Part shown: one piece after another, positions 40,127 through 62,807 of the stretch
Layout: each line of letters opens with the position of its first letter
Numbering within the stretch: position 1 is the first letter of the stretch
From: Lacrimispora sp. BS-2
GTDB lineage: Bacteria; Bacillota; Clostridia; Lachnospirales; Lachnospiraceae
DNA: 64,000 nt
Assembly: GCF_040207125.1 (NCBI RefSeq)
Contig: NZ_CP157940.1
Span: 806,001 to 870,000 of the forward strand
Reading direction: 5' to 3'
Translations under genes and position numbers: made by a program
The notes under the pieces: model-generated
Database searches by the model: none
The model's input: the letters and a program-made list of their open reading frames with translations, nothing else
What the model was told of the DNA's origin: nothing

Positions 40127-40155
40127 TTGACAAATAGTCAAGATGACAGTATATT
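40127..40155 (+). promoter_or_regulatory. Promoter of the first Cys leader
   Basis: TTGACA at 40127-40132, 17-bp spacer, TATATT at 40150-40155. ATATTAAAC (40151-40159) and the inverted arms TAAAC/GTTTA (40155-40159, 40166-40170) follow. The 9-mer ATATTAAAC recurs after the -10 of the second Cys leader (62578). Confidence 0.75.
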
Positions 40156-40195
40156 AAACATATAGGTTTAGTATGAATAAGGAGAAACAGAAAAA

Positions 40196-40303
40196 ATGAA
40201 AACGAGCTGCAAGAGAAACATGAATCATATGATGAAATGTTGTTGCTGTAGATGCTTCCATGAAACAGATACAGTTTATTTGTGTGCGCGTCTTGGCTTC
40301 TGA
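40196..40303 (+). CDS. Cys-rich leader peptide upstream of the cysteine-type ABC transporter
   Basis: 35 aa; AAGGAG at 40179-40184, 11 nt before the ATG. The core is MKCCCCRCF (four consecutive Cys codons, then one more after Arg) followed by DTVYLCARLGF. A hairpin begins 31 nt after the stop. Consecutive Cys codons ahead of a terminator and a cysteine-type importer suggest transcription attenuation: stalled ribosomes at low Cys-tRNA allow read-through. The peptide resembles the one at 62628. Mechanism is inference. Confidence 0.65.
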   Translation: MKTSCKRNMNHMMKCCCCRCFHETDTVYLCARLGF

Positions 40304-40333
40304 TTTCCAATTGTTATCTTGTGACACTGAGAA

Positions 40334-40385
40334 AATAAATGGAAGGGAGCAGGTATATGCGTATACCTGCTCCTTTCCATTTATT
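40334..40385 (+). terminator. Attenuator-like hairpin between Cys leader peptide and transporter
   Basis: A 24-bp stem (AATAAATGGAAGGGAGCAGG... paired with ...CCTGCTCCTTTCCATTTATT, one G-T pair), loop TGCG. The tail is U-rich (ATTTATT) rather than a run of T, so termination may be partial. TTTCCA right after the leader stop (40304-40309) can pair with TGGAAG in its 5' arm (40340-40345), a possible antiterminator. Confidence 0.65.
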
Positions 40386-40450
40386 AATAGAAAAGGGAGG
40401 AAGGTAATTGATGAACCATATAAGAAAGAAGGAGGGGGAAAAGAAAAATC

Positions 40451-41110
40451 ATGGATTTTGAGTTTATCCGTGCCTATACGCCACTGTATGCAGAGGCGGC
40501 GGGTCTGACACTTCGAATATCTTTTCTGGGAATCCTGCTGTCAGCAGCCATTGGACTTTTGTGCAGCCTGGTCAAAATTTTTAAGATACCAGTGTTAAGG
40601 AGTATTGTGAATGGCTATATTGAGGTATCCAGGAATACGCCTCTTTTGATCCAGTTGTTCTTTTTATACTTCGGACTCCCTAAAATCGGTGTTGTTTTAA
40701 GCTCTGAAAGCTGCGCCGTAACAGGGCTGGCATTTTTAGGAGGAAGCTACATGGCGGAAGCGTTCCGCACGGGAATTGAACAGGTACCGGTCATCCAGTC
40801 AGAATCGGGTCTAAGCCTGGGTCTTACAAAATGGCAGGTATTCCGGTATATCATCCTTCCTCAGGCGGTCACCACCTCGGTTCCTGTATTTTGTGCCAAT
40901 ATCATATTTCTAATAAAAGAAACATCGGTGTTCAGTGCGGTGGCCCTGGCTGACTTAATGTTTGTGGCAAAGGATCTGATAGGAATCTATTATAAAACAG
41001 ATGAGGCCCTCCTGATGCTGGTGGCGGCATACTTAATCATTCTGCTGCCAATATCCTTACTCTGTTCCTGGATAGAAAGGAGGGTCCGCTATGCAGAATT
41101 TGGGAATTAG
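40451..41110 (+). CDS. Polar amino acid ABC permease (first)
   Basis: 219 aa with AAGGAGGGGG upstream of the ATG. About five membrane segments with the HisM-type EAA region (SESGLSLGLTKWQVFRYIILPQAV). The N-terminal YTPLYAEAAGLTLRISFLGILLS is standard for polar amino acid permeases. It is the first gene after the Cys leader; its 3' end overlaps the second permease by 20 nt. The binding protein of the operon resembles cysteine-binding CjaA, so cysteine or cystine is the likely cargo. Confidence 0.92.
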   Translation: MDFEFIRAYTPLYAEAAGLTLRISFLGILLSAAIGLLCSLVKIFKIPVLRSIVNGYIEVSRNTPLLIQLFFLYFGLPKIGVVLSSESCAVTGLAFLGGSYMAEAFRTGIEQVPVIQSESGLSLGLTKWQVFRYIILPQAVTTSVPVFCANIIFLIKETSVFSAVALADLMFVAKDLIGIYYKTDEALLMLVAAYLIILLPISLLCSWIERRVRYAEFGN

Positions 41111-41768
41111 GATACTGTTTGAGGGAAATAATTTTTTACGGCTATTTGGCGGACTCCTGGTATCTCTCAGGATTGCGGTCATATCCATGGTTTTATCCGT
41201 GGTACTTGGAATACTCCTTGGAATGGTGATGACCAGCAAAAAAAGGCCGGTTAAGTTTTTTACAAGGTTTTATCTGGAGACGGTCCGGATCATGCCTCAG
41301 CTGGTTCTTTTGTTTCTTGTTTATTTTGGGGCTGCAAAGCATTTGAACGTGAATTTCTCCGGGCAAATGGCTGCGGTCATTGTATTCACCTTTTGGGGGA
41401 CGGCTGAAATGGGGGATTTGGTCCGAAGCGCTCTGGAATCCATTCCGGTCCACCAGTATCAGAGCGGCTTTGGCCTTGGCATGACGGAGCTTCAAGTCTA
41501 CCGGTACATTGTGATTCCCCAGACCATAAGGAGGCTTCTGCCGTCAGTTATGAATCTTTTGACGAGAATGATCAAGACCACGTCTCTTGTTGTATTGATC
41601 GGCGTGATTGAGGTGGTCAAGGTTGGAAAACAGATCATTGATGCTTCCAGGTACACGGTCCCTGATGCGGCCCTCTGGATATATGGAGTGATTTTCATCC
41701 TGTACTTTGTAATCTGTTACCCGTTTTCCAGGGCAGCTGCCCTGCTAGATAAAAAATTAAAGGATTGA
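41091..41768 (+). CDS. Polar amino acid ABC permease (second)
   Basis: 225 aa, AGGAGG upstream of the ATG inside the end of the first permease. It has the HisM-type fold with EAA region YQSGFGLGMTELQVYRYIVIPQTI and four to five membrane segments. The two permeases probably form a heterodimer. The ATPase gene starts 5 nt after its stop, and expression should be controlled by the Cys leader upstream. Confidence 0.92.
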   Translation: MQNLGIRILFEGNNFLRLFGGLLVSLRIAVISMVLSVVLGILLGMVMTSKKRPVKFFTRFYLETVRIMPQLVLLFLVYFGAAKHLNVNFSGQMAAVIVFTFWGTAEMGDLVRSALESIPVHQYQSGFGLGMTELQVYRYIVIPQTIRRLLPSVMNLLTRMIKTTSLVVLIGVIEVVKVGKQIIDASRYTVPDAALWIYGVIFILYFVICYPFSRAAALLDKKLKD

Positions 41769-41773
41769 TAAAA

Positions 41774-42526
41774 ATGAGTCAGGAAATGATATTAAAGACA
41801 GAGAATCTTAGGAAGTCCTATGAAAACGGGCAGCCGGTTTTAAAGGATATTTCATTTACCTTGGAAAAAGGAGAGGTAGTCGTGGTGGTAGGACCTTCCG
41901 GCTGCGGTAAGAGCACCTTTTTGCGATGTCTCAACATGCTGGAGCCCATTGATTCCGGTACGATTCAGTTTAAGGACCGGATCATTGACAGGAGCAAGCG
42001 GGATGTTTATGAAATAAGACAGAAGATCGGCATGGTATTCCAGAGCTACGATCTATTCCCCCATAAGACCATTCTGGGGAATATTCTTCTGGCCCCTTTA
42101 AAGGTGCAGAAAAGAGATAAAAAAGAGGTGGAAAAGGAAGCGGAGCAGCTTCTGGCCCGGGTAGGGCTTCTGGACAAAAAGGATTCTTACCCAAGGCAGC
42201 TGTCCGGCGGACAGAAGCAAAGAGTGGCCATTGTAAGGGCGCTTATCATGCATCCGGAAATCCTTCTCTTAGATGAGATTACGGCAGCCCTGGACCCGGA
42301 GATGGTGCGGGAGGTTTTACAGGTGGTGCTGGAGCTGGCAAAGGACGGAATGACCATGGTCATCGTCACCCATGAAATGGAATTTGCCAGGGCAGTGGCT
42401 GACCGTGTCCTGTTCATGGATCAGGGCGTGGTAGTGGAAGAGAGCCTGCCGGGAGAGTTTTTCACCTCTCCGCGGACAGAGCGGGCAAAGCAGTTTTTAA
42501 ATACGTTTCATTATGAAGCGTTATAA
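41774..42526 (+). CDS. Polar amino acid ABC transporter ATPase
   Basis: 250 aa from the ATG at 41774 (AAAGGA upstream; an in-frame TTG at 41765 is less likely). Walker A GPSGCGKST, Q-loop FQSYDLFPHKT, signature LSGGQKQRVAIVRAL, Walker B ILLLDEITAALD and switch His in IVTHEMEFA are complete. It is the ATP-hydrolysing subunit of the importer, next to both permeases and the binding lipoprotein. Confidence 0.95.
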   Translation: MSQEMILKTENLRKSYENGQPVLKDISFTLEKGEVVVVVGPSGCGKSTFLRCLNMLEPIDSGTIQFKDRIIDRSKRDVYEIRQKIGMVFQSYDLFPHKTILGNILLAPLKVQKRDKKEVEKEAEQLLARVGLLDKKDSYPRQLSGGQKQRVAIVRALIMHPEILLLDEITAALDPEMVREVLQVVLELAKDGMTMVIVTHEMEFARAVADRVLFMDQGVVVEESLPGEFFTSPRTERAKQFLNTFHYEAL

Positions 42527-42554
42527 AATAAAAAATTAAAAGGAGGATGTAATT

Positions 42555-43424
42555 ATGAAAAAGAAATTACTGGGTGCATTATTAGGAATTACCATGGCGG
42601 CAGGTATTTTGGCAGGCTGCGGCCAGGCAAAGGACAATGGAGGAAACACAGGAGGAGCAGTTGCAAAGGCAAGAACCTTATCTGAAATCAAGGATGCCGG
42701 AACCATTAAGATTGGCGTATTCAGTGATAAGAATCCATTTGGATATGTGGATTCCAACGGAAAAATCCAGGGCTATGATGTGTATTTTGCAAAGCGCCTG
42801 GCAAAGGATTTATTTGGAAGTGAGGATAAGGTTGAATTTGTATACGTAGAGGCTGCCAGCCGGGTGGAATATTTAAAGTCAGCAAAGGTGGATGTGATTC
42901 TTGCTAATTTTACTGTTACAGATGAGAGAAAGGAACAGGTGGATTTTGCACTTCCTTACATGAAGGTGGCTCTTGGAGTGGTATCCCCTGATGCTGCTTT
43001 GATTACTGATGTGGCACAGTTAAAGGATAAGACCCTGATTGTGGTAAAGGGTACTACGGCGGAAACTTATTTTTCAGAAAACCATCAGTCAGTCAAGCTG
43101 TTAAAGTTTGATGAGTATCAGGAAGCCTATGACGCACTTCTGGACGGAAGAGGAGATGCTTTCTCCACCGATAACACAGAGGTTCTTGCCTGGGCCATTC
43201 AGAACAAGGGATTTGCCGTAGGAATCGAATCCATCGGAAATCTGGATACCATTGCTCCGGCTGTTCAGAAAGGAAACAAAGAGCTTTTAGACTGGATCAA
43301 CAGTGAGATCGAGACTCTTGGCAAGGAAGAGTTTTTCCACAAGGATTTTGAGGAAACCTTAAAGCCTGTGTATGGAGATGAAATTGATCCGGAAAATCTG
43401 GTGGTGGAAGGCGGTCAGGTTTAG
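42555..43424 (+). CDS. Cysteine-type solute-binding lipoprotein (CjaA-like)
   Basis: 289 aa. Lipoprotein signal with LAGC (Cys22), AAGGAGG upstream. The mature part, KIGVFSDKNPFGYVDSNGKIQGYDVYFAKRLAKDLFG and VEAASRVEYLKSAKVDVILANFTVTDERKEQVDFALPYMKVALGVVS, follows closely the layout of CjaA of Campylobacter, a cysteine-binding protein, as I recall it. It captures an amino acid outside the membrane for the two permeases and ATPase encoded before it. Cysteine (or cystine) specificity is also suggested by the Cys-rich leader peptide at the operon start. Confidence 0.88.
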   Translation: MKKKLLGALLGITMAAGILAGCGQAKDNGGNTGGAVAKARTLSEIKDAGTIKIGVFSDKNPFGYVDSNGKIQGYDVYFAKRLAKDLFGSEDKVEFVYVEAASRVEYLKSAKVDVILANFTVTDERKEQVDFALPYMKVALGVVSPDAALITDVAQLKDKTLIVVKGTTAETYFSENHQSVKLLKFDEYQEAYDALLDGRGDAFSTDNTEVLAWAIQNKGFAVGIESIGNLDTIAPAVQKGNKELLDWINSEIETLGKEEFFHKDFEETLKPVYGDEIDPENLVVEGGQV

Positions 43425-43487
43425 GAAACAGGATCTGAGAAAAAACATCAACAGCTGTCTTGAAATGACTTAATGAGAAAAAAAACC

Positions 43488-43516
43488 GGCAGGGCGTATT
43501 GACGTCCTGCCTTTTT
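43488..43516 (+). terminator. Terminator of the cysteine-type transporter operon
   Basis: GGCAGGGCGT pairs with ACGTCCTGCC (one G-T pair), loop ATTG, followed by TTTTT. Confidence 0.88.
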
Positions 43517-43568
43517 CATTCCATAATAAATAGCAATATTATATAACAGTGTTATAAAAGGGGAAAGA

Positions 43569-43637
43569 ATGAGTGTTCAAATAAATGATACACGTCTGGC
43601 TATTTGGGTGGCAGGAAAACATGGCTGGAGCGTCTAA
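43569..43637 (+). CDS. Possible 22-codon upstream ORF
   Basis: ATG with AAAAGGGGAAAG just upstream, coding MSVQINDTRLAIWVAGKHGW and two more residues. It ends 25 nt before the methyltransferase start. It could be a leader peptide or chance; no family is recognised. Confidence 0.3.
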   Translation: MSVQINDTRLAIWVAGKHGWSV

Positions 43638-43662
43638 GGGGAAAATGGAGGAGGTATATTAA

Positions 43663-44484
43663 ATGAAATCGGAATTAAATTCTCAAACAGTACAAAACAC
43701 CATGCTTTTACCGTTGTGGGGCCGTGCCACGGCCAGTGCGAAAAACCTTGAGATATTAAATGATAAGGAAGCCATAGAAATCATCAAAAACTGCGATTAT
43801 GATTTCAGTACCGTTGCAAAGACCTTCGGTGAATTCGGCGGAATCTGTTATATCGTCCGTGCCAGGAAAATTGATGATACAATCCGTAAATTCATCCGAA
43901 AACATCCCCGTGCTTCTATTGTAAATATCGGGGCAGGGCTGGATACTACCTTTTCCAGGGTGGATAACGGAAGTATCAACTGGTATAATCTTGACCTGCC
44001 TGATGCCATTGCTTTCCGGCAGAAATTCCTTCCGGATTCTCCCCGTAACACAAGCATTGCCAAATCCCTGTTTGACACTTCCTGGTTTGATGATGTTATT
44101 TTTAACCGCGGGGACGGTATTTTATTTGTGTCGGCCGGAGTTTTTTATTATTTCAGGGAAGAGCAGCTAAAAGCCATCTTTGAAGCGATGGCTCACCGTT
44201 TTCCCGGAGGAGAAATTTATTTTGATGCGGAATCAAGGCAGGCGGTTAAGAAGTCAAACCGTATGGTTGAAAAAACCGGGAATAAAGGCGCCATGATGTA
44301 TTTTTACGTCAATGATTTAAAAGATCTGGAAAACTGGTCCCCGGTTATCCGGGCCGTTGCCTGTGAAAAATACTTTAAGGGCATACCGGTTAACAGGCAG
44401 TGGAGCTTTGGTATCCGCTTTATGATGAAAATCATGGACCGGATAAATATGATGAAATTCATACACCTGCGTTTTTCGGAATAA
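43663..44484 (+). CDS. LCM/TcmP-type SAM-dependent methyltransferase
   Basis: 273 aa with GGAGGAGG upstream of the ATG. The motif RASIVNIGAGLDTTFSRVDNGSINWYNLDLPDAIAFR is typical of the leucine carboxyl methyltransferase-like family (Ppm1/TcmP), and ILFVSAGVFYYFREEQLKAIF is a later family motif. These proteins O-methylate carboxyl or hydroxyl groups of small molecules; the substrate here is unknown. It is followed by a fragmentary reading frame and a terminator, and is not obviously linked to neighbours. Confidence 0.82.
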   Translation: MKSELNSQTVQNTMLLPLWGRATASAKNLEILNDKEAIEIIKNCDYDFSTVAKTFGEFGGICYIVRARKIDDTIRKFIRKHPRASIVNIGAGLDTTFSRVDNGSINWYNLDLPDAIAFRQKFLPDSPRNTSIAKSLFDTSWFDDVIFNRGDGILFVSAGVFYYFREEQLKAIFEAMAHRFPGGEIYFDAESRQAVKKSNRMVEKTGNKGAMMYFYVNDLKDLENWSPVIRAVACEKYFKGIPVNRQWSFGIRFMMKIMDRINMMKFIHLRFSE

Positions 44485-44520
44485 TTAATCATAGCCCTAA
44501 AACGGATAGGAGGAGCTGCT

Positions 44521-44658
44521 TGCTTTAACCGGAATGCCGAAATTCATGAAGAGCTGATACCTATTATCAAGGAACTATGTGACGATCCTGTATTGACTCT
44601 GTTTAAAGGAAACGGAATCAAGGATCTGGATTTTGAATATGCAGTTAAAGAAATTTAA
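44521..44658 (+). pseudogene. Short open frame without a start, possible gene remnant
   Basis: An open frame reads CFNRNAEIHEELIPIIKELC followed by DDPVLTLFKGNGIKDLDFEY and AVKEI, then stops. It has no start codon. The ribosome site AGGAGG at 44509 leads instead to a TTG-CTT-TAA in another frame, as if a frameshift or deletion had occurred. It looks like the C-terminal end of a lost protein. No family was recognised. Confidence 0.4.
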
Positions 44659-44698
44659 AGATGTTTATCAGGTATTACCGAAATAACTTTTTCATTTT

Positions 44699-44730
44699 CA
44701 GGCCGCCATTTTTTGGCGGCCTGATTGTTT
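44699..44730 (+). terminator. Terminator before the Afu-type operon
   Basis: CAGGCCGCC pairs with GGCGGCCTG, loop ATTTTTT, tail ATTGTTTT. Confidence 0.88.
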
Positions 44731-44936
44731 TGCAACAAGATGCCTTGAAAATTGTAAAATATGTACATGTATATTGGGTATTGCAATAAAAAATAGTGCA
44801 AAAGTTCAGGATGACAAAAGAAATGTAAGAATATTAAATGGAAAAATGCACATTAAAACCTTATAATTAGGTCATGGGAATTAAACATTTCCATATAAGC
44901 GTGAACTCAAATAATTTTATAAAGGAGAGGTTATTT
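44731..44936 (+). promoter_or_regulatory. Promoter region of the Afu-type binding-protein gene
   Basis: TATAAT at 44862-44867 has a poor -35 (TGGAAA about 17 nt upstream), as expected for an activated promoter. TTGCAATAAAAAATAGTGCAAAA (about 44780-44802) and TATGTACATGTATA lie upstream and may bind the AraC-type response regulator at 54244; this is inference. Confidence 0.4.
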
Positions 44937-46055
44937 ATGAAAAAAAGATTATTAACAGCTTCACTGGCAGCATTGGCAGCATTAAGCTTATCCGCCTGCA
45001 GCGGCGGAGGAAAGCCTGCGGAAACCACAGCAGCTCCTCAGACTACTGCAGAGGCGGCATCTGACGAAACAAAGGCAGAGGAGTCCAAGGACGGAGCCGA
45101 GGCAGCAGCAAAAGCACCGGAGGAGTACAAAGGAACCGTTGTCGTATATTCTCCTCATGATGCAGACCCGCTCAATGCAGGCGTGAACTTATTCATGCAG
45201 AAGTATCCCAATGTGAAGGTGGAGGTCGTGGCGGCCGGTACAGGAGAACTGTGCAACCGTATTGCAGCCGAGTCCGCAAATCCTATTGCAGACGTATTGT
45301 GGGGCGGAGGAGCAGACTCTCTGGCAGCCTTTAAGGAATATTTCGCTCCTTATGTATGTGCCAATGACGAGTTCATCGGCGACGCTTATAAGGATTCCGA
45401 GGACATGTGGATCGGAGAAAGCCCTCTGCCCATGGTCATTTTCTACAACAAGGATTTGATTCAGAAGGATGGCCTTGCAATTCCCGAGACATGGGAGGAT
45501 TTGACAAAGCCTGAATGGAAAGGTAAGATCGCATACTGTCTGCCCTCCAAGTCCGGTTCCGCCTACACTCAGCTATGTACCATGATCCTTGGCCATGGCG
45601 GCAAGGAAGCCGGCTGGGATTTCATTAAGAAATTATATGACAATCTGGACGGCAAGATTGTAGACTCTTCCGGCAAGTGCCACAAGATGGTTGCAGACGG
45701 TGAGTTCTACGCAGGCCTGACTCTGGAGAAATCCGCAGTCCAGTATAAGGAGGATCCGTCCGTTGGATTCGTATATCCAAAAGACGGAACCAGCGCAGTG
45801 CCGGATGGCGTAGCTCTTGTAAAGGGCGGTCCTAACGAGGAAAACGCAAAGCTGTTTATTGATTTTGTTACATCAAAGGAATGCCAGACAGAGCAGAGTA
45901 AGAACTGGGGACGCCGCCCAGTAAGAAGCGACATGGAAGTGGGAGAAGGAATGGCGAAGTTACAGGATATCGTACTGGTGGATTATGATTTTGACTGGGC
46001 GGCAAATGAAAAAGAAGCCATTATTGAGAAATTCAACGACATTATGGTCGATTAA
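44937..46055 (+). CDS. AfuA/FbpA-type binding lipoprotein (predicted sugar-phosphate)
   Basis: 372 aa from the ATG at 44937 (AAAGGAGAGG upstream). Lipoprotein signal with LSAC (Cys21), then an Ala/Glu/Thr-rich linker. The binding domain starts GTVVVYSPHDADPLNAGVNLFMQKYPNVKVEVVAAGTGELCNRI and belongs to the iron(III)/Afu family. AfuABC of Actinobacillus imports hexose phosphates. Nearby phosphoglucomutase and HptA/HptS/HptR-like genes favour a sugar phosphate over iron, but sequence alone cannot settle it. A hairpin separates it from the ATPase gene, probably giving more binding protein than transporter. Confidence 0.85.
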   Translation: MKKRLLTASLAALAALSLSACSGGGKPAETTAAPQTTAEAASDETKAEESKDGAEAAAKAPEEYKGTVVVYSPHDADPLNAGVNLFMQKYPNVKVEVVAAGTGELCNRIAAESANPIADVLWGGGADSLAAFKEYFAPYVCANDEFIGDAYKDSEDMWIGESPLPMVIFYNKDLIQKDGLAIPETWEDLTKPEWKGKIAYCLPSKSGSAYTQLCTMILGHGGKEAGWDFIKKLYDNLDGKIVDSSGKCHKMVADGEFYAGLTLEKSAVQYKEDPSVGFVYPKDGTSAVPDGVALVKGGPNEENAKLFIDFVTSKECQTEQSKNWGRRPVRSDMEVGEGMAKLQDIVLVDYDFDWAANEKEAIIEKFNDIMVD

Positions 46056-46081
46056 TAAAAGGATAGGAATACATTCTGACA

Positions 46082-46122
46082 AAAAAGACTGTCCCGGCCC
46101 CTTGGGGACAGGACAGTCTTTT
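46082..46122 (+). terminator. Partial terminator between binding protein and ATPase genes
   Basis: AGACTGTCC pairs with GGACAGTCT, with a second inner stem (GGCCCC/GGGGAC-like), followed by TTTTC. It likely gives partial termination inside the operon. Confidence 0.7.
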
Positions 46123-46169
46123 CAGTAAGAGACAGGAAGACAGCCGATGGTATAAGGAGAGCAAAACAT

Positions 46170-47249
46170 ATGAGCCATGCAGTAATTATTAAACAGGCCG
46201 TGAAAAAGTACGGTGATTTTACAGCCCTGAATGGGGTGGATTTAGAGATGAAGCCGGGGGAATTTTTCACATTGCTTGGTCCCTCCGGATGCGGCAAGAC
46301 GACCCTCCTTCGTATGATCGCAGGATTTAATTCTGTGGATGGCGGGGAGATCTGCTTTGATGACAGGGTAATCAACAACCTGGAGGCCCACAAGAGGGAT
46401 ATTGGCATGGTGTTCCAGAACTACGCCATCTTTCCCCATCTGACTGTGGCGGAGAATGTGGCTTATGGCCTGAAAGCAAAAAAGTATCCCAAAGACCAGA
46501 TTTCAGGCAAGGTGGAAGAAGCCCTTGACTTAGTGCAGATCAGAAACCTAAAAGACAGGAAACCAAATGAGCTGTCCGGCGGTCAGCAGCAGCGGGTGGC
46601 TCTTGCAAGGGCGTTTGTTATTGAGCCAGGGGTGCTTCTCATGGATGAGCCCTTATCCAACCTGGATGCAAAGCTTAGAGTACAGATGAGAACAGTTATT
46701 AAAAAGCTGCAAAGACGGCTTGGAATCACCACCATTTATGTTACCCACGATCAGGAGGAGGCTCTGGCTATTTCCGACCGGATCGCAGTTATGAAGGAAG
46801 GCAACATCATGCAGGTAGGTTCGCCGGAAGAGATTTACAAGAAGCCGGGAAACACCTTTGTGGCCGGATTCATCGGCGTATCAAACTTCATTGAATGTGA
46901 GGTGGATGGAAGCGTTCCGGACAGAGCTGTTTTAAATATCAAGGATGAATGCAGTTTGACCTGCAGGCTGAAATCCGCCTACAAGGGTAAGGGAATCATT
47001 TCCGCAAGACCGGAGCAGCTGTTCTTCGATGAAAAGGAAGGGCTTCCTGGCCGGATCGTCATTTCCACGTTCCTGGGAGATTTCATTGAGTATGAGATCC
47101 AGCTGAACAATGGTCAGACCATTCAGCTAAATGAATACACAAAGGATGCAAGCGACCTGCGGCCAGACGGACAGGAGGTGCGGGTGAACTTTGATATCAG
47201 CGCGGTAGGTGTATACGATGCCCAGACCCAGGAGGTGATATCATGGTAA
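46170..47249 (+). CDS. Afu/Fbp-type ABC transporter ATPase
   Basis: 359 aa. Walker A GPSGCGKTT, Q-loop FQNYAIFPHLTV, signature LSGGQQQRVALARAF, Walker B LLMDEPLSNLDA and switch His in YVTHDQEEAL are present. A C-terminal TOBE-like domain follows at about 240-355. The length is typical for PotA/FbpC ATPases. It overlaps the permease gene by 7 nt and energises import of the ligand bound by the AfuA-type lipoprotein. Confidence 0.93.
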   Translation: MSHAVIIKQAVKKYGDFTALNGVDLEMKPGEFFTLLGPSGCGKTTLLRMIAGFNSVDGGEICFDDRVINNLEAHKRDIGMVFQNYAIFPHLTVAENVAYGLKAKKYPKDQISGKVEEALDLVQIRNLKDRKPNELSGGQQQRVALARAFVIEPGVLLMDEPLSNLDAKLRVQMRTVIKKLQRRLGITTIYVTHDQEEALAISDRIAVMKEGNIMQVGSPEEIYKKPGNTFVAGFIGVSNFIECEVDGSVPDRAVLNIKDECSLTCRLKSAYKGKGIISARPEQLFFDEKEGLPGRIVISTFLGDFIEYEIQLNNGQTIQLNEYTKDASDLRPDGQEVRVNFDISAVGVYDAQTQEVISW

Positions 47250-55485: not shown

Positions 55486-55523
55486 AAAAAGCTCACGGGC
55501 CTGGTGGTCTGTGAGCTTTTTTT
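55486..55523 (+). terminator. Terminator after desulfoferrodoxin
   Basis: AAAGCTCAC pairs with GTGAGCTTT; the tail continues in T. Confidence 0.9.
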
Positions 55524-55607
55524 AGTATTACCAATTCTTGACTTCTGGCCTGATTTGCACTAGTATTAAATTTGCAGTTTTACTTTAGAATAGGAGAAGA
55601 CCGTAGA

Positions 55608-56765
55608 ATGAACAAGAAAGAAGCCAATGAAATAAAGAAACTTTTCACTCCGGCCAACTGTGCCATCAGCCGTATCTGCGGCTGCTATGTGGACGCGGAA
55701 AAGAACAAGAGAACGGAGCTTAAGGAAGCATTTTTATCCCTCCCAGAGGAAGAAGCATTTAAATATTTCACCATCTTTAGAAGCGGCCTGTCAGGGACCA
55801 TCGGCAAGAACATGGTCAATATGGAATTTCCCTTACATACGGAAGCAGAAGGCGGAACCCAGAATTTTCTGCTGAAGCTCCGGGACAGCCAATTAAAGGA
55901 TGATGCCCTGATTGAGGAATTCTATGACAGGTTGATTGCCAGCTACGATTACGGCGAGAATTATTACATCATCCTCATTCATTGTGCCTATGATATTCCC
56001 GCAAGGAGCTCCGATGGCCTGGAAATGGAAGATGCCTCTGATTTTGTATATGAATTCATTCAGTGCTCCATTTGCCCGGTGAAGCTGTCAAAGGCAGGGC
56101 TTTGCTACAATTCCGAGGCCAACGTCATCGAAAACCGCAACAGGGACTGGATCGTGGAGGCTCCTGATACCGGCTTTTTATTTCCGGCCTTCACAGACCG
56201 GAATACGGATATCCACAGCCTTTTATACTATGCCAAAAACCCGGAGCAGATGCCGGAACGCCTGATTGATGAACTGCTTGGCTGCGTGATACCTATGTCC
56301 GCCAAGAGCCAGAAGGAGACGTTCCAGGCCATTGTAGAGGAAACCCTGGGAGATAACTGCGATTTTGAAACGGTTAAGAGCCTTCACGAAAATTTAAATG
56401 AGATTCTTGAAGAAACAAAGGATGAGCCGGCTCCCTTTACCCTGGACAAGTACCAGATGAAAAGACTGTTGGAGAACAATGGAGCCAGCCAGGAGAAGCT
56501 GGAGGAATTTGAGCAGCGTTATAGCGAAGACGAAGAAAAGTCTGTGCCTCCCTTTATCGCGTCCAATGTGATCAATACCAAAAGCTTTGAGATTAAAACA
56601 ACGGACGTGAGTATAAAGGTAGCCCCTGATAAGACCCATCTGGTAGAAAACCGGATGATCGACGGCAGGCCATGTATTGTCATCGGTATCAGCGAGCATG
56701 TGGAGATCAACGGAATCACGGTAAGGCCCATAGCAGCAGAAAGGACAATGGAGCCGGAGGAGTAA
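55608..56765 (+). CDS. DUF4317-family protein
   Basis: 385 aa from the ATG at 55608 (TAGGAGAA upstream). It matches the DUF4317 family of Clostridia: N-terminal MNKKEANEIKKLFTPANCAISRICGCYVD, a central segment with NYYIILIHCAYDIP and IQCSICPVKLSKAGLCY, and a C-terminal strand-rich end. It is cytoplasmic with no known catalytic motif. The function of the family is unknown. Its 3' end is convergent with the acyltransferase gene and the shared hairpin sits over both stops. Confidence 0.85.
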   Translation: MNKKEANEIKKLFTPANCAISRICGCYVDAEKNKRTELKEAFLSLPEEEAFKYFTIFRSGLSGTIGKNMVNMEFPLHTEAEGGTQNFLLKLRDSQLKDDALIEEFYDRLIASYDYGENYYIILIHCAYDIPARSSDGLEMEDASDFVYEFIQCSICPVKLSKAGLCYNSEANVIENRNRDWIVEAPDTGFLFPAFTDRNTDIHSLLYYAKNPEQMPERLIDELLGCVIPMSAKSQKETFQAIVEETLGDNCDFETVKSLHENLNEILEETKDEPAPFTLDKYQMKRLLENNGASQEKLEEFEQRYSEDEEKSVPPFIASNVINTKSFEIKTTDVSIKVAPDKTHLVENRMIDGRPCIVIGISEHVEINGITVRPIAAERTMEPEE

Positions 56766-56779
56766 AACTCACCGGCTCC
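56750..56779. terminator. Hairpin over the stop codons of two convergent genes
   Basis: GGAGCCGG (56750-56757) pairs with CCGGCTCC (56772-56779) around a 14-nt loop. T-runs are weak. Confidence 0.5.
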
Positions 56780-57929
56780 TTAATGGATGGACCAGGCCTT
56801 TAAAAAGTGTCTGGACGCAAAGGACTATGGTCTGGTCAAAGAGAAAGGCTGCAGCGGAAGAAAGGACCAGAACCAGGATAAAGGAAAGCAGGGTGCTGCC
56901 TGCCATGCCAAAGGAAAGCCAGTTGATCCCTGACCGCTCTCTGACAAAATAAAGCACGGCCCAGTGAACCAGCAGGATGGAATAGCTGTGCCGGATCAGG
57001 AAGTTCATCACCATCCCTGGCCTTGGAAGCCGGTTTTCCAGGGAACGAAGCATAAGAAAAACTGAGGCTCCCAGAAGGATCATGGCAGGAGCGCCTTCTG
57101 CCAATAGAATGGCCTTGTAATCAGGCCGCAGGGCGGTACAGAGGATGGTGAACAGAAAGGATACCATGCCAAGTCCCAACCAGGCCTTCCTGTATTTCAT
57201 GGAAATGGGCTTGGAAAAGTAATAGCCAAGCAAAAACACTCCTTCCCATGGACTGATCATAAGTTCAAAGTTTAAGGGCAGGCCAATAACAGGCAGGTAA
57301 ACGGCCAGACAGCGGAAAAGGAGGATTAGGACCGCCAGTCCGTGAAGCATGGAGCCGGTCAGATGCCTTAAAAGAATGCTGAAAAACGGAGCCAGGATAT
57401 AGAGGGACAAAATGACATAGATCACCCACAAATGAGGCGCCCAGTCAATGGGGCCTGCCGCCATATCCTTTAAGGCTTTCAAGATTCCGTTCATGAGGCC
57501 GGAATTAAAATACCGGCAGGAGAGCAGGATATAAATGCAGTAGTAACAAAAAAAAGGAAGGGCCACCTGAAGGAACCGCTTATAATAAAAGGCAGGCAGG
57601 CTCTCCTTTTGCTCTCTCAGGATCAAAGCACCGCTGTTCATGATAAACAGGGTATTGCAGACCAGGAGAATAGAGGAAAGGGACTGAACCCCCACCCAGG
57701 TTTTGCTCCCGGCCGTAAGCCCGGCTGTGGAGAAATCAAGGCAGTGGACTAAAATAACGAAAAGGGCGGCAATAAGACGGACATAATCAAGGTAGAGGAT
57801 CCTGCTTTTTCCGGAATCATTTCCTAAAAACAGATGTTTTAAATAATCTCTGTCCTTAAGCTGCCGCCTGATATGAATGCCGCAGGAAATTGCAATAAAA
57901 GCAAGTATTGTCATCTGTAACTTTCCCAT
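56769..57929 (-). CDS. Membrane acyltransferase (Acyltransferase-3 family)
   Basis: 386 aa with about ten hydrophobic segments. An early segment carries LDYVRLIAALFVILVHC, the usual R-x10-H motif of acyltransferase-3 proteins such as OatA and other O-acetyltransferases, and GVFLLGYYF follows later. They move acyl groups from the cytoplasm to surface sugars or peptidoglycan. The acceptor here cannot be read. GGAAC precedes the ATG. It is transcribed divergently from the FokI-like gene. Confidence 0.85.
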   Translation of the reverse strand: MGKLQMTILAFIAISCGIHIRRQLKDRDYLKHLFLGNDSGKSRILYLDYVRLIAALFVILVHCLDFSTAGLTAGSKTWVGVQSLSSILLVCNTLFIMNSGALILREQKESLPAFYYKRFLQVALPFFCYYCIYILLSCRYFNSGLMNGILKALKDMAAGPIDWAPHLWVIYVILSLYILAPFFSILLRHLTGSMLHGLAVLILLFRCLAVYLPVIGLPLNFELMISPWEGVFLLGYYFSKPISMKYRKAWLGLGMVSFLFTILCTALRPDYKAILLAEGAPAMILLGASVFLMLRSLENRLPRPGMVMNFLIRHSYSILLVHWAVLYFVRERSGINWLSFGMAGSTLLSFILVLVLSSAAAFLFDQTIVLCVQTLFKGLVHPLRSR

Positions 57930-58148
57930 AATTTCTGTTCCTTTCCGGTCCTTTTCATCTTATAAAGATAACAAGCTTTCACCATTATATCACAGGAATC
58001 CGTTCATCACAAACCAAACCCTTTGGCCATTCTCAGGAAAATTACGTGGTCAATCCCTGGCGGCTATGGTATACTTAAGAAAACGCCCTGCGGGGATACT
58101 TTTATGCCCAAAGAACATGGGCTGGAAAAAGAAAAATGCAGAGAGGAA

Positions 58149-59888
58149 ATGACAGTGGCAGATCGGACATTTGGCTGGGTACAGGAGGCCTATACCCTGG
58201 AAAATCTAAAAAATGTTGTATCCGCGTTTGTGCCGGATTCAGAGATCAACAGGATCCTGCGTATGGATAAGATACCCAGGCTCATATCGGAAAAAGACGG
58301 AAAAGACGAGTTTATACGGGAATTAAGCAGCAGGGAAATTTCCATCCCCTATACCCATTTAAAGGGAAAAGGGACGCCTGCAGGCTATACAAGGAGCAAT
58401 GCCCCTTGTTCCGGGATCATTCAGGCCGTCCTGCCGGGACAGCGAAAGGAATACCAAAGCGACTGGCCGGCAGATTCCTTTTTGAGATGGGCAGTGAGCA
58501 TTGGCTTTCTTCATTACAGCCGGAACGAGGATGTCTGTTCCCTGTCCCCCCTGGGACAGCAGTATGCCAATGCGCCTGCAGGCAGTGAGGAGGAGGCTTT
58601 CGCGTTAAGGACCGCCCTTCTTTCCTACCCGCCCGTGTGCAGAGTTCTGTCCCTGTTGGGAGAAGAAGGGCATCTGACAAAGTTTGAGATGGGAGCAAGG
58701 CTTGGCTTTATCGGAGAGGCAGGCTTTACCTCCATTCCCCAGTACATGATCCTCCAGGGGCTGGCGGAAGCAGAAACCAGAGAAGAGAGGACAAAGCTTC
58801 TCCAGGATACGGAAGGCACCAGCGATAAATATGTCCGGACTATTTGCAGCTGGCTTTTACAGATGGGCTGGATCAACAAGGCGGCAAAGGAGGTAACTGC
58901 TGCCATCGGAGGGAAGTCCTGTACCGGAACCATCCCCCAGTCTTACCAGTTGACATTAAAGGGAAGGACCGTATTAAAGCATGTGACAGGCGTTTCAAAA
59001 TTCCCCAGAATTCCCAAGCGGGTGATGTGGGATATGCTGGCTACCAAGGTGGCTGACCGGGAATATCTGCGCAACCGCAGGACCCATATCATAAAATATC
59101 TGGAAGGAGCCTACCGCTCCCCATTGCAGGTAAAGGAATATTTAAAAGGCATGGGCATGGAAGAGGAGGAAGAGACGATTCTCGATGACATCCGAAGCCT
59201 TGAAAATATTGGGCTTCAAGTGAAAAAGACCGGAAACACCTATCGGATCATGGAGGAAATAACCGGTCTTGAGCTGCCTTATGAAAACCATGGACCGGTG
59301 CCGGTAAAATCAGAAGTGTCCCTGTGCAAGGATTATTTAAGATCCCATTTAATCCATGTGGACCATCGGTATCTCATCCTTTTGGATCTGGGATTTGACG
59401 GCAGTTCAGACAGGGATTATGAGATACAGACAGCCCAGCTTTTGACAGCTGAACTGGACTTTAAGGGAGCCAGGCTTGGGGATACCAGAAAGCCGGATGT
59501 GTGCGTATATTATGGAGAAGATGGGCTGATCATTGATAACAAGGCTTATGGAAAAGGGTATTCCCTTCCGATCAAACAGGCCGATGAGATGTACCGCTAC
59601 ATAGAGGAAAATAAGGAACGGAATGAGAAGCTTAATCCAAACAAGTGGTGGGAGATCTTTGATAAAGGTGTGATACGCTATCACTTTGCTTTTGTTTCCG
59701 GTGCGTTTACCGGCGGATTTAGGGAAAGGCTTGAGAATATCCGGATGCGTTCCGGGATCTGCGGAGCCGCAGTCAATTCCCTGAATCTTCTTTTGATGGC
59801 AGAAGAGCTGAAGTCAGGAAGGCTGGACTACAGTGAGTGCTTTAAGTTTTTTGACTGCAATGATGAGATTGGGTTTCAACGTTCTTAG
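58149..59888 (+). CDS. FokI-type type IIS restriction endonuclease
   Basis: 579 aa from the ATG at 58149, almost the length of FokI; other in-frame starts are ATG 58104 and GTG 58155 (GAGAGG 8 nt upstream). The N-terminal recognition domain aligns with FokI by memory (RTFGWVQ...ENLK, SDGFLRW-like WPADSFLRWAVSIGF, LTKFEMGARLGFIGEAGFTS, RIPKRVMWDMLAT). The C-terminal nuclease keeps RKPD (Asp450), IIDNKAY (Asp463, Lys465), LPIKQADEMYRYIEEN and NPNKWWE. FokI binds GGATG and cuts outside it. No adjacent methyltransferase is seen. Confidence 0.93.
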   Translation: MTVADRTFGWVQEAYTLENLKNVVSAFVPDSEINRILRMDKIPRLISEKDGKDEFIRELSSREISIPYTHLKGKGTPAGYTRSNAPCSGIIQAVLPGQRKEYQSDWPADSFLRWAVSIGFLHYSRNEDVCSLSPLGQQYANAPAGSEEEAFALRTALLSYPPVCRVLSLLGEEGHLTKFEMGARLGFIGEAGFTSIPQYMILQGLAEAETREERTKLLQDTEGTSDKYVRTICSWLLQMGWINKAAKEVTAAIGGKSCTGTIPQSYQLTLKGRTVLKHVTGVSKFPRIPKRVMWDMLATKVADREYLRNRRTHIIKYLEGAYRSPLQVKEYLKGMGMEEEEETILDDIRSLENIGLQVKKTGNTYRIMEEITGLELPYENHGPVPVKSEVSLCKDYLRSHLIHVDHRYLILLDLGFDGSSDRDYEIQTAQLLTAELDFKGARLGDTRKPDVCVYYGEDGLIIDNKAYGKGYSLPIKQADEMYRYIEENKERNEKLNPNKWWEIFDKGVIRYHFAFVSGAFTGGFRERLENIRMRSGICGAAVNSLNLLLMAEELKSGRLDYSECFKFFDCNDEIGFQRS

Positions 59889-59908
59889 GCACATGGAGGT
59901 TTGATGTT

Positions 59909-60577
59909 ATGGTGTTGGGAGAGTATCTTCCTTTTTGGAATAAGCTGACAGAGAGACAGAGAATGCTCTTAAAAGAAAAAGCCAGGGAAGCCAGGTTTGA
60001 AAAAGGTATGCTGGTCCACGGCGGGGCTGACGGCTGCAGCGGGCTTTTGCTTGTGACCGAAGGACAGCTTAGGGTTTTTATGATATCGGATGAGGGACGG
60101 GAGCTGACGCTTTATCGTCTGCTTGAGCGGGATATCTGCCTTTTTTCCGGTCCTTGTATGGTTAAAAACATTCAATTTGATGTTACGGTGGAAGCGGAGC
60201 AGGATTCCGTGGTCTCAGTGATTCCGCCGGAGGTCTACAAGACGCTGATGGAGCAGTCGGCAGTTGTCTCAAACTTTACCAATGAGCTGATGGCTTCCCG
60301 TTTTACCGATGTCATGTGGCTCATGGACCAGGTCTTAAATAAGAAAATGGATGGCCGCCTGGCCGCTTTTCTTCTGGAAGAGGGGAGGCTTACGGGTTCC
60401 GGGGAGCTTTCCATTACCCACGAGCAGATCGCCCATCATCTGGGAACGGCAAGAGAAGTGGTGACCCGCCTCTTACGGCTGTTCCAGGCGGACCTCCTGG
60501 TTAAACTCACCAGGGGAAGTGTGGAGCTTCTTGATGAGAAGGGCTTAGAACTTCTGGCAGAGGACAGTCTGAGATAG
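59909..60577 (+). CDS. Crp/Fnr-family regulator (second)
   Basis: 222 aa with GGAGG upstream of the ATG. Cyclic-nucleotide-binding-type N-terminal half, then winged HTH LSITHEQIAHHLGTAREVVTRLLRLFQADLL at about 165-205. Cys occur at DGCSG, DICLF and GPCMV; the last two lie in the sensor half. It lies 20 nt after the FokI-like gene and 111 nt before the SulP transporter and could regulate either; the ligand is unknown. It differs clearly from the Crp/Fnr protein at 22306. Confidence 0.88.
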   Translation: MVLGEYLPFWNKLTERQRMLLKEKAREARFEKGMLVHGGADGCSGLLLVTEGQLRVFMISDEGRELTLYRLLERDICLFSGPCMVKNIQFDVTVEAEQDSVVSVIPPEVYKTLMEQSAVVSNFTNELMASRFTDVMWLMDQVLNKKMDGRLAAFLLEEGRLTGSGELSITHEQIAHHLGTAREVVTRLLRLFQADLLVKLTRGSVELLDEKGLELLAEDSLR

Positions 60578-60688
60578 GAATCCTTGTACTATTTGAAAAA
60601 CATGGGAAATTCACTTGCATTCTTTTCTTTTCACAGTTATATTATAAAAAGTTTGTGAAAAATTTATAATGTAAAAGGATCGGGAAAA

Positions 60689-62326
60689 ATGAAGGATATG
60701 ATACCCCAGTTTTTTTTATCAATGAAGCACTATACAAGAGAGCAGTTTATAAAGGATATTATTTCCGGAATTATCGTGGCAATCATTGCCCTGCCTCTCT
60801 CTATCGCTCTTGCCCTGGCTTCCGGCGTAACCCCGGAGCAGGGACTTTATACGGCCATTGTCGCAGGCTTTGTGATCTCTTTTTTAGGCGGCAGTAAGGT
60901 GCAGATTGCAGGGCCTACGGCTGCATTTGCTTCTATTGTTGCTGGTATTGTCATAAAAAACGGGCTTGACGGTCTGGCCGCGGCAACCGTAATGGCCGGA
61001 ATTATTCTGGTTATCATGGGATTTTTACGGTTGGGAAGTCTGATACGTTTTATTCCCTATACCATTACAACCGGGTTTACCGCCGGCATTGCGGTGACTA
61101 TTTTTATCGGCCAGATAAAGGATTTCCTGGGGCTTACCTTTGAAAAGGCTCCGGTGGAGACCATGGAAAAGCTGGAGCAGGTGGTACACTCCATCGGAAC
61201 CCTTAATCCCATGGCATTGGCAATAGGAATGATCGCCCTTTCCGTACTTATCATCTGGCCAAGATATTTTAAGAAGGTCCCCCCATCCTTAGTTGCAGTT
61301 GTTCTCACTGCGGTTCTGGTAAAGGTGCTGGATCTTCCGGTTCATACCATTGGTGATCTGTATACCATTTCCCCCAGTCTTCCGGCTCTGCATGTTCCCA
61401 GGCTGTCCCTTGACATGATGGGGAAGGTCATGCCTGATGCAGTGACCATTGCGGTGTTGGCTGCCATTGAATCATTGCTGTCCTGCGTTGTGGCAGACGG
61501 AATGATAGGAAGCAGGCATAATTCCAACATGGAACTGATTGCTCAGGGACTGGGTAATACCTTTTCTGCATTGTTTGGAGGAATCCCGGCTACAGGCGCC
61601 ATTGCGCGGACGGCCGCCAACGTGAAAAACGGAGGAAGAACTCCTGTGGCGGGAATGGTTCATGCAGTTCTTCTGCTGTTGATCCTTGTATTTCTCATGC
61701 CATATGCAGCCCTTATCCCTATGCCGGCCATTGCAGCGATTCTGTTTATGGTTGCATATAATATGAGCGAGTGGAGAGAATTTGTTTCAATTGTAAAAAC
61801 TTCCCCTAAAAGTGACTGGTCCGTGCTTTTGGTCGCTTTTATCCTGACCGTGGTATTTGATCTGGTGGTGGCTATCGGCGTTGGCCTGATATTTGCTTCT
61901 TTGCTGTTCATGAAGCGGATGGCGGATGTGGCCGAGGTAAACGGCTGGAAGTATCTGGAGGATAAAGAGGAGAATGAAGGAGACCGCATTGACTTAAAGC
62001 CTGTTCCAGGGCATGTGGCCGTATTTGAAATCAATGGTCCAATGTTTTTTGGAGCCGCAGATAAGATATCCAAGGTGGTACTGGAAGACGGAAAGAGAGT
62101 GCTGATACTCCGTATGCGGAGCGTTCCGGCCATGGATACAACTGCCTTAAAAAGCTTAAAGAAGCTTTACAGCAGTTTAAAAAGAAAGAACATCACACTG
62201 ATGTTATCCCATGTGAACGAACAGCCTATGTCAATGATGGAACGGGCGGGATTTGTAGATGATATGGGACGGGAGAATATTGCAGGCTGCATTGATGAGG
62301 CTTTGATGCGTGCCTCCGCGCTATAA
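60689..62326 (+). CDS. SulP-family anion transporter with STAS domain
   Basis: 545 aa. Ten or more membrane segments span about 20-420; family motifs include DIISGIIVAIIALPLSIALALASGVTPEQGLYTAIVAGF and GSKVQIAGPTAAF. A C-terminal STAS domain lies at about 440-540 (VAVFEINGPMFFGAADKI, ILRMRSVPAMDTTALKSLKKL). SulP proteins move sulfate, bicarbonate or other anions. No carbonic anhydrase or sulfate-reduction gene adjoins it, so the ion is open. A Crp/Fnr regulator precedes it. Confidence 0.9.
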   Translation: MKDMIPQFFLSMKHYTREQFIKDIISGIIVAIIALPLSIALALASGVTPEQGLYTAIVAGFVISFLGGSKVQIAGPTAAFASIVAGIVIKNGLDGLAAATVMAGIILVIMGFLRLGSLIRFIPYTITTGFTAGIAVTIFIGQIKDFLGLTFEKAPVETMEKLEQVVHSIGTLNPMALAIGMIALSVLIIWPRYFKKVPPSLVAVVLTAVLVKVLDLPVHTIGDLYTISPSLPALHVPRLSLDMMGKVMPDAVTIAVLAAIESLLSCVVADGMIGSRHNSNMELIAQGLGNTFSALFGGIPATGAIARTAANVKNGGRTPVAGMVHAVLLLLILVFLMPYAALIPMPAIAAILFMVAYNMSEWREFVSIVKTSPKSDWSVLLVAFILTVVFDLVVAIGVGLIFASLLFMKRMADVAEVNGWKYLEDKEENEGDRIDLKPVPGHVAVFEINGPMFFGAADKISKVVLEDGKRVLILRMRSVPAMDTTALKSLKKLYSSLKRKNITLMLSHVNEQPMSMMERAGFVDDMGRENIAGCIDEALMRASAL

Positions 62327-62343
62327 AAATACCGGCAAGCCGG

Positions 62344-62402
62344 AAAACAGGCCGTAAGGGTCAGAGAAAAGGAATGCTCTGATTTCTTACGGCCTGTTTA
62401 TG
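62344..62402 (+). terminator. Terminator after the SulP gene
   Basis: AACAGGCCGTAAG pairs with CTTACGGCCTGTT, with an inner stem TCAGAG/CTCTGA. The following 62403-62540 holds no gene. Confidence 0.82.
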
Positions 62403-62542
62403 TTCTGTCAGCCGCTTTATTCCCTTCTTAGGACCGGTCAATCCCCAACTCTTTTCCATGGGCGGGGGCCTGGGAAGGGGGAACAATGGAGATAAAAAGG
62501 GACAAGTCGTTAAAAAAATATCATAAAAATATGAAAAAGATG

Positions 62543-62571
62543 TTGACATCTCAAAAAGATAATATTATAAT
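62543..62571 (+). promoter_or_regulatory. Promoter of the second Cys leader
   Basis: TTGACA at 62543-62548, exactly 17 bp, TATAAT at 62566-62571. ATATTAAAC (62578-62586) and the imperfect inverted repeat AACCTAT/ATAGGGT (62584-62590, 62598-62604) follow, a possible repressor site. Confidence 0.85.
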
Positions 62572-62627
62572 CAATACATATTAAACCTATAAAGATAATA
62601 GGGTATTGAAGAAAGGATGTCATTCAT

Positions 62628-62747
62628 ATGATAAACACAATGTTTTCTGCAGGGATTGACCATTTTGCAAGCTTTGAACAGATGGATAGCTGTTGTTGTA
62701 AAACTGTGTGCATGTATATGAATACAGCTTATTTTTGTATGTATTAG
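62628..62747 (+). CDS. Cys-rich leader peptide upstream of yezD-nifB
   Basis: 39 aa; AAAGGA about 11 nt before the ATG. The C-terminal half reads DSCCCKTVCMYMNTAYFCMY, with three consecutive Cys codons. Leader 1 shares the order CCC...C...[DN]T[VA]Y[LF]C. A textbook terminator starts 31 nt after the stop, the same distance as in leader 1. TACCTG just after the stop (62750-62755) can pair with CAGGTA of the terminator arm (62779-62784). This suggests Cys-dependent attenuation; mechanism is inference. Confidence 0.65.
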   Translation: MINTMFSAGIDHFASFEQMDSCCCKTVCMYMNTAYFCMY

Positions 62748-62777
62748 AATACCTGGATCCGTGACAGCTGGAGTTTT

Positions 62778-62807
62778 ACAGGTACTGTAATAGTACCTGT
62801 TTTTTTT
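62778..62807 (+). terminator. Attenuator terminator after the second Cys leader
   Basis: ACAGGTACT pairs with AGTACCTGT, loop GTAAT, followed by a run of eight T. It stands 176 nt before the YezD start. Confidence 0.88.

Follow-up and report, generated by a model that had tools for sequence, protein, structure and literature searches.

What do two short open reading frames (ORFs), each with a run of cysteine (Cys) codons, do at the head of two different operons in Lacrimispora sp. BS-2? The 64,000-nucleotide (nt) stretch analyzed here (the window; contig NZ_CP157940.1) carries one ahead of an ATP-binding cassette (ABC) transporter operon (leader 1) and one ahead of a nitrogenase-like operon (leader 2). 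We conclude that each leader probably controls transcription by ribosome-mediated attenuation, with Cys-tRNA(Cys) as the quantity read, a view to which we give a probability of roughly 0.86 from sequence comparison. It is built on the ORFs themselves, selection on their Cys codons, a hairpin (P1), terminators, complementarity near the stop codon across the leaders as a group, and target genes of sulfur type. From these we infer stalling, the choice between termination and readthrough, the function of P1, and the signal that is sensed. G and L numbers label the genomes and loci of the analysis, G000 being the genome of the window.

Leader statistics were taken from a catalogue of 56 leaders: 19 of leader-1 type, 9 of leader-2 type, 19 of cysK type, the fourth leader of the window genome (leader 4), one from G151, and 7 others. 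The ratio of nonsynonymous to synonymous change (pN/pS) in the last three codons of the Cys run was 0.27, 0.00, and 0.03 for leader types 1, 2, and 3, respectively, and 0.84, 0.72, and 0.90 before the run. After the run it was 0.59, 0.38, and 0.99, and since pS was also low there (0.31, 0.22, and 0.27), the constraint appears to act at the nucleotide level. Synonymous change is present within the run (pS 0.37 to 0.61), the leaders together use 206 UGU and 99 UGC codons, and changes in run length are of whole codons. A Shine-Dalgarno (SD)-like core was found in 49 of the 56. The comparison of synonymous with other changes, proposed in a preliminary description of the two window leaders, thus came out in two parts: the pattern indicates that the Cys codons are kept as codons under purifying selection, while what follows the run is conserved at the nucleotide level and not as peptide.

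The nucleotides in question form P1, which overlaps the Cys codons or comes immediately behind them. P1 arms were anchored on the peptide motif and not on pairing, which gave 22 distinct arm pairs; the leader-1 type and leader 4 were excluded by rule, and L3_G007, G002c, G206, L173, and L186 because their anchors were missing. Pairing was seen at 185 of 198 possible pairs, compared with 145.3 ± 4.2 in synonymous randomizations (codon usage from 14 window genes; reached in 0 of 4000 draws). Sliding the 3' arm lowered pairing from 93% to 32 to 51%. When the letters of the 3' arm were re-dealt, the paired fraction was reached in 15 of 2000 deals, the double changes in 74 of 2000, and the extra pair types in 0 of 2000. 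A separate alignment, A3, holds 24 of 35 core sequences and omits the weaker pairers G009 and G367 (7/9 and 6/9); 95.8% of its cells were paired at register 0 versus 30 to 49% when slid. Its P1 covariation score was reached by 1 of 500 shuffles, but neither the number of pairs altered on both sides (2; 90 of 500 shuffles had as many) nor that of cells so altered (3; mean 2.9) was in excess. RNAalifold predicted the same helix unprompted. In leader-1 sequences the 5' arm lies within the Cys codons, and the helix is part of the minimum free energy fold of 16 of 18 distinct sequences; P1 was not seen in leader 4. Residues beyond the Cys run are common to the leaders because they encode the arms of P1. 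The preliminary description had proposed a regulon built on a conserved leader peptide; what is conserved is instead the Cys codons and an RNA hairpin.

An intrinsic terminator lies between the ORF and the first gene in 47 of the 56 leaders by a strict scan, and in the other 9 by a looser rule only. Pairing of the region from -12 to +20 around the stop codon with the 5' arm of the terminator exceeded that in dinucleotide shuffles (20 leaders, z -3.08, reached by 1 of 400), and control regions at -60 to -28 (n = 20, z +0.77) and +20 to +52 (n = 12, z +0.97) had no excess pairing with that arm. Complementarity of the kind expected of the antiterminator segment suggested previously is seen for the group but is weak leader by leader. 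Two other details shared by the window pair do not carry over to the catalogue as a whole. GTGACA between stop and hairpin is present in both but in only 9 of the 56 overall (8 of 19 leader-1 type, 1 of 9 leader-2 type). The stop-to-hairpin distance is equal in both, at 30 nt on recounting and not 31; among the 56 it runs from 0 to 79 nt and is 30 or 31 in 8. Because neither is conserved, distance and GTGACA are coincidence or local inheritance. The 17-bp promoter spacer and the order of peptide motifs are in each window leader as described.

We modeled ribosome position by folding truncated transcripts with an assumed ribosome footprint of 12 nt. With the ribosome at the Cys run, the terminator 5' arm was predicted to be sequestered (group means 0.76 to 0.98), and in 39 of 56 leaders sequestration was lower once the ribosome stood at the stop: 17 of 19 of leader-1 type, all 9 of leader-2 type, 5 of 19 of cysK type, leader 4, the G151 leader, and 6 of the 7 others. 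These folds lend good support to the proposed antiterminator switch in leaders of type 2 and in most homologs of leader 1, but not in leader 1 of the window itself or in the cysK type. Several cysK leaders have a complementary segment 12 to 18 nt past the stop, where the modeled footprint ends.

The proposed mechanism would work as follows. When cysteine is ample, the ribosome would reach the leader stop and cover the stop segment, the terminator hairpin would form, and the operon would be off. A shortage of charged tRNA(Cys) would stall the ribosome on the Cys run; the uncovered stop segment could then pair with the 5' arm of the terminator, and this pairing would let RNA polymerase read through into the sulfur-acquisition genes. 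P1, which corresponds to the 1:2 hairpin of classical attenuators, would probably pause the polymerase or shield the downstream RNA until the ribosome comes.

Similar leaders appear at further operons of the genome. The window genome has at least four Cys-run leaders, with an ABC transporter, the nitrogenase-like cluster, cysK, and an operon of glutathione S-transferase (GST)-like and cystine-type transporter genes as targets. The third leader (...CCCQAVCMKKNTVLF), a weak match (G000:C1:512874, E 0.09) in a leader 2 search of 25 same-genus genomes, ends 148 nt before cysK. The fourth (MFKRNERMVLMCCCCCKCVRNGHFTCALKLETPVHGVYA) is flanked by cysK and a GST-like gene; behind the latter come a cystine-type ABC transporter, a GNAT acetyltransferase, more GST-like genes, and an M20 peptidase. 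A CCC leader stands upstream of the cysK ortholog at 21 of 23 Lacrimispora loci; these orthologous loci are a counterweight to the bias that comes from collecting leaders by their Cys runs.

A query with the MarD/NifD-like protein gave 233 relatives among the species genomes, and we examined the best 80 loci, many of which end at contig edges. A Cys-cluster ORF with a terminator was found within 450 nt upstream of a mapped gene in 17 of the 80, and 16 of these are convincing; the one at L236 looks like chance. Small Cys-cluster ORFs outside mapped genes and with a terminator numbered 18 on the operon strand versus 2 on the opposite strand; with the terminator condition dropped the count was 55 versus 42.

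An RNA model of the leaders, R1, blind to genes, matched 35 sites in 21 of 25 genus genomes and, under strict filters, 11 sites in 10 of 299 family genomes; the site G024:C1:769837 is counted uninspected. Nine family sites had E ≤ 1e-3, a number that includes two in the window genome; these two and the sites in G185 and G136 were among the training rows, and that in G245 is near-identical to one. Five of the nine are upstream of cysK (window genome, G185, G136, G259, and G377) and one is upstream of yezD/nifB (window genome). The G166 site is upstream of a gene for a family-5 solute-binding protein, behind which come cysK- and nifD-like genes; the G098 site precedes a MetQ/NlpA-type lipoprotein (Pfam NlpA above cut-off, NCBIfam MetQ below), and the G245 site precedes a gene without identification within a nitrogenase-like cluster. 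Weaker matches at L289 and L290 (E 0.004 to 0.007) look like chance. Profile A1 gave 15 sites in 250 family genomes, 3 in the window genome and 2 real-looking ones elsewhere (L062 and L064); among the other 10 (E 3e-4 to 0.008), the 9 inspected look like chance, L072 being the uninspected tenth.

A Cys-run leader in G002 (L056, 14212-14292) heads an operon of sulfonate type that encodes an iron-containing alcohol dehydrogenase, an aminotransferase, SsuA (scoring over the NCBIfam cut-off), and an SsuC-like permease. Homologs thus extend across Lacrimispora and other Lachnospiraceae, including positions upstream of sulfonate and MetQ/NlpA-type transporters, and among the loci examined no convincing leader was found outside operons linked to sulfur or amino acid transport. 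The scan of related genomes that had been proposed therefore did yield further leaders before genes of this kind. The repeated matches before cysteine, transporter, and nitrogenase-like genes bear out the earlier view that the two window leaders belong to one sulfur-linked, multi-operon regulon.

Several observations weigh against attenuation or narrow its reach. Because leaders were collected through Cys-rich peptides, pN within the run is biased low. A few leaders are frameshifted 3' of the run, and 7 of the 56, all of cysK type, have no clear SD core by pattern. A simple terminator scan found no plus-strand terminator at the leader 1 hairpin, where the U-tract is interrupted. Antiterminator pairing was below p 0.05 in only 2 of 20 leaders taken singly, and a longer-segment test gave 6 of 56, all of leader-1 type. 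The fold prediction fails for 17 of the 56: 5 are unchanged, including leader 1 of the window (0.99 to 0.99), and 12 shift the opposite way, at least 11 of them of cysK type, including that of the window genome. A recognizable cysK leader is absent in G004 and G011, the other 2 of the 23 same-genus loci; of 7 cysK loci in other genera, 5 have no leader and 2 have Cys-run ORFs with no terminator visible by eye. R1 matches are also few at the family level.

The best-surviving alternative is that cysteine acts mainly through a repressor bound at the promoter and the leader only tunes the response, which we consider unlikely. Palindromes like CCTAT-N7-ATAGG lie 3' of the -10 element in 12 of the 56 leaders (shuffle mean 0.015), and 42 of 56 upstream regions carry the motif AAC[AC]TAT, compared with a mean of 2.5 in mononucleotide shuffles. 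The 9-mer ATATTAAAC that the preliminary description singled out belongs to this pattern; it is in both window leaders but in exact form in only 14 of the 56. AAC[AC]TAT looks like part of an operator, and a repressor operator, as a putative second layer of control, is the natural guess for motif and palindromes together. As the main switch, however, a repressor leaves the Cys-codon selection, P1, and the terminators unexplained, and the exact palindrome is missing from 44 of the 56. At several cysK loci of other genera we saw by eye a different element, TTATCA...GATAA.

That the peptide is read in the ribosome tunnel, with [DN]T[VA]Y[LF] as an arrest sequence, is considerably less probable. 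The residues [DN]T[VA][YLF] and [TA]V do recur in different operons and genera, but they spell both arms of P1, whose pairing exceeds the synonymous expectation and survives residue change (ACUGUA/UACGGU versus ACUGAA/UUCGGU; NTA versus NMV; UA for AU in the G016 group). The pN/pS of 0.38 to 0.99 after the run, with its low pS, likewise argues for nucleotide and not peptide constraint. Since the hairpin accounts for the common residues, we set aside the nascent-chain recognition that had been suggested. Functional small Cys-rich peptides, metal-binding or modified and regulatory by position only, would fit the up to five Cys in a row, but they are very improbable given near-neutral N-terminal parts (pN/pS 0.72 to 0.90), the lack of any Pfam or NCBIfam match at E ≤ 1 for the two window peptides, and a terminator that separates ORF from first gene. 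A cysteine T-box or riboswitch overlapping the leader can be dismissed almost entirely: cysK and cystine transporters of Clostridium perfringens are under cysteine T-boxes according to excerpts of PMC2940859, but the T-box covariance model RF00230 had no match at the leaders, no Rfam family except tRNA reached its gathering score in the window and 27 loci scanned, and the 12 T-box matches in the window genome are all at least 25 kb from its four leaders.

Attenuation at translated Cys codons has known counterparts. The Escherichia coli trp and his attenuators combine control codons, a 1:2 hairpin, and mutually exclusive antiterminator and terminator; in the Lachnospiraceae leaders, by contrast, the candidate antiterminator segment is near the stop, apart from the 3' arm of P1. 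The uORFC-8-2 motif of Rhodobacterales cysS, as excerpted from PMC8632094, has tandem Cys codons in an upstream ORF, a first stem that holds them, and a U-run consistent with a terminator stem, and Cys-tRNA ribosome-mediated attenuation was proposed for it. By that description it is set apart as alphaproteobacterial, with one gene (cysS) and two Cys codons, whereas the present leaders serve multi-operon sulfur acquisition with up to five Cys. An Rfam scan of the window, in which the uORFC-8-2 model was not searched by name, gave no match. Cysteine leader peptides of Actinobacteria (excerpts of PMC1262725) are likewise short Cys-run ORFs before cys operons or cbs, but their Cys run is near the stop, and those of Mycobacterium have no conserved terminator hairpin, Rho being suggested; ours have an internal run followed by P1 and an intrinsic terminator. 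The histidine leader peptide of bacilli hisS/hisZ (parts of PMC2965389) is a classical attenuator in Firmicutes that serves paralogous genes and replaces a T-box, and differs in amino acid (histidine), host (bacilli), and targets (hisS-family genes). What sets the present leaders apart is that they form an apparent multi-operon regulon in Clostridia. The literature search found no description of the Lachnospiraceae family, so "apparently undescribed" holds for the family but not for the kind, Cys-codon leader attenuators having been published in Actinobacteria and Rhodobacterales (PMC1262725 and PMC8632094, both in part).

The C. perfringens T-box shares with our leaders its genes (cysK and cyst(e)ine uptake) and its signal (tRNA(Cys) charging); as excerpted from PMC2940859, it binds the tRNA directly, whereas here codons are translated and no T-box was found. 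Lachnospiraceae thus have an apparent cysteine regulon on translated leaders at genes that are T-box-controlled in C. perfringens, and one sensing device may have replaced another for the same signal and genes.

Many related loci also carry a tRNA-Cys gene. ARAGORN found one in 8 of the 33 loci given: in G001 shortly behind the Cys leader, in G008 before the solute-binding protein, and in six other-genus loci between cysK and nifB. Neither the window nor the two leader loci that its genome has beyond it contained one. A 13-base pattern of the usual tRNA(Cys) anticodon arm gave no match. Among the 80 MarD/NifD-like loci, a tRNA-Cys is present in 32, that of L231 having an ACA anticodon; cysK is upstream of nifB in 49, with a tRNA-Cys in between in 29 of them, and the order leader, cysK, tRNA-Cys, nifB occurs at six (L182, L191, L213, L214, L222, and L243). 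A search of nine genomes with the G001 tRNA-Cys closely matched only itself and the G008 copy; divergent copies elsewhere are outside the reach of this search. Work by Schuntermann et al. (JBC, 2023) reportedly concerns non-canonical bacterial tRNA(Cys). The discriminator base of readable embedded copies is A or G by eye, whereas cysteinyl-tRNA synthetase expects U73 (excerpts of PMC8762117). A speculative possibility, which we hold to be a little more doubtful even than the repressor, is that the regulon of these relatives includes its own non-canonical tRNA(Cys) (GCA anticodon, no U73), apparently co-transcribed behind leader and cysK. It would be produced only under cysteine starvation and would be charged poorly, or with something other than cysteine; it might decode or block the leader Cys codons, a feedback loop on the attenuator, or recode Cys codons, sparing sulfur while the nitrogenase-like scavenging enzymes are made. 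The placement of such genes inside Cys-leader operons makes their role testable.

The best NCBIfam model for the leader 1 operon ATPase is the cystine ATPase TcyN (292.6 bits, below the cut-off of 406); cystine is a candidate substrate. The leader 2 operon continues past the window with nifX, nifH, a cysK homolog, nifD-like and nifK-like genes, a FeMo-Co-domain protein, and a cystine-type ABC transporter. Because its NifD-like protein is far nearer to PDB 9FMG (9fmg_A, 4.6e-91), the methylthio-alkane reductase MarDK2H2 according to parts of PMC12552129, than to the best MoFe alpha chain (3.5e-30), the cluster is probably methylthio-alkane-reductase-like and sulfur-scavenging rather than nitrogen-fixing. 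The leader regulon would tie nitrogenase-like clusters to a shortage of sulfur. In Clostridium indolis, genes of such a kind, set alongside by kind only, are read as nitrogen fixation in the portions of PMC4149025 that concern them.

Table 1. Positions of the leaders, their operons, and embedded tRNA genes (window coordinates unless an L number is given)
Feature	Position	Strand	Details and basis
Leader 1 promoter, TTGACA-17-TATATT	40127..40155 (-35, 40127-40132; -10, 40150-40155)	+	11/12 consensus matches
Leader 1 operator-like dyad over -10, ATATTAAAC...GTTTAGTAT	40151..40174	+	Sequence; related motif enriched upstream of leaders
Leader 1 ORF, 35 amino acids, CCCC run, MKTSCKRNMNHMMKCCCCRCFHETDTVYLCARLGF	40196..40303	+	Sequence
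Leader 1 hairpin P1	40245..40275	+	GCUGUA 40245-40250 with UACAGU 40270-40275; 5' arm within Cys codons
Leader 1 candidate antiterminator segment, UUUCCA...	40304..40313	+	Directly after stop; p 0.08 and 0.16 alone
Leader 1 long terminator-like hairpin	about 40334..40385	+	U-tract interrupted in window genome
ABC transporter operon (polar-amino-acid type)	40451..43424	+	Two permeases, ATPase, family-3 solute-binding protein
Leader 2 promoter, TTGACA-17-TATAAT	62543..62571	+	12/12 consensus matches
Leader 2 operator-like palindrome, CCTAT-N7-ATAGG	62586..62602	+	Motif count
Leader 2 ORF, 39 amino acids, CCC run, MINTMFSAGIDHFASFEQMDSCCCKTVCMYMNTAYFCMY	62628..62747	+	Sequence
Leader 2 hairpin P1	62701..62730	+	Arms 62701-62709 and 62722-62730; conserved pairing
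Leader 2 candidate antiterminator segment, AUACCUGG	62749..62756	+	Complementary to terminator 5' arm; p 0.16 alone
Leader 2 intrinsic terminator (62778-62800) and U-tract	62778..62808	+	Terminator scan
yezD-like gene (DUF2292)	62992..63144	+	Pfam (PF10055, 1.1e-15); start codon tentative
nifB-like radical SAM gene	63236..64000	+	Continues beyond window
tRNA-Cys	L136 3809-3878		GCA anticodon; A or G at 73 by eye (all tRNA rows)
tRNA-Cys	L139 3908-3979		
tRNA-Cys	L140 4079-4150		
tRNA-Cys	L143 1599-1668		
tRNA-Cys	L146 3901-3972		
tRNA-Cys	L149 3240-3309		
tRNA-Cys	L055 17114-17185		
tRNA-Cys	L057 10586-10658		

Immediately 5' of leader 2 is a SulP-family permease gene (60689-62326), found in the same place in same-genus loci L056, L057, L058, L060, L061, L291, L292, and L294 and not in L055. 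A remnant of leader 2 (MDCCCCKTVCMYMNTAYFCMY) lies beside an atp_nif fragment (L060 of G005, 2189-2357; L012); the G005 species seems to have lost its nitrogenase-like cluster by deletion, and its leader 1 has an early stop too. The G018 cluster (L059, 8522-14306) has a partial tandem duplication of nifK-orf152-solute-binding protein-permease. Nitrogenase-like clusters 77 to 78% related occur in records titled Treponema (L206, L228, L236, L247, and L250) and Spirochaetaceae (L238), which suggests horizontal transfer or a binning error. The gene at 58023-59888, between the two window leaders, matches the full set of four Pfam domains of FokI, those for recognition as well as cleavage.

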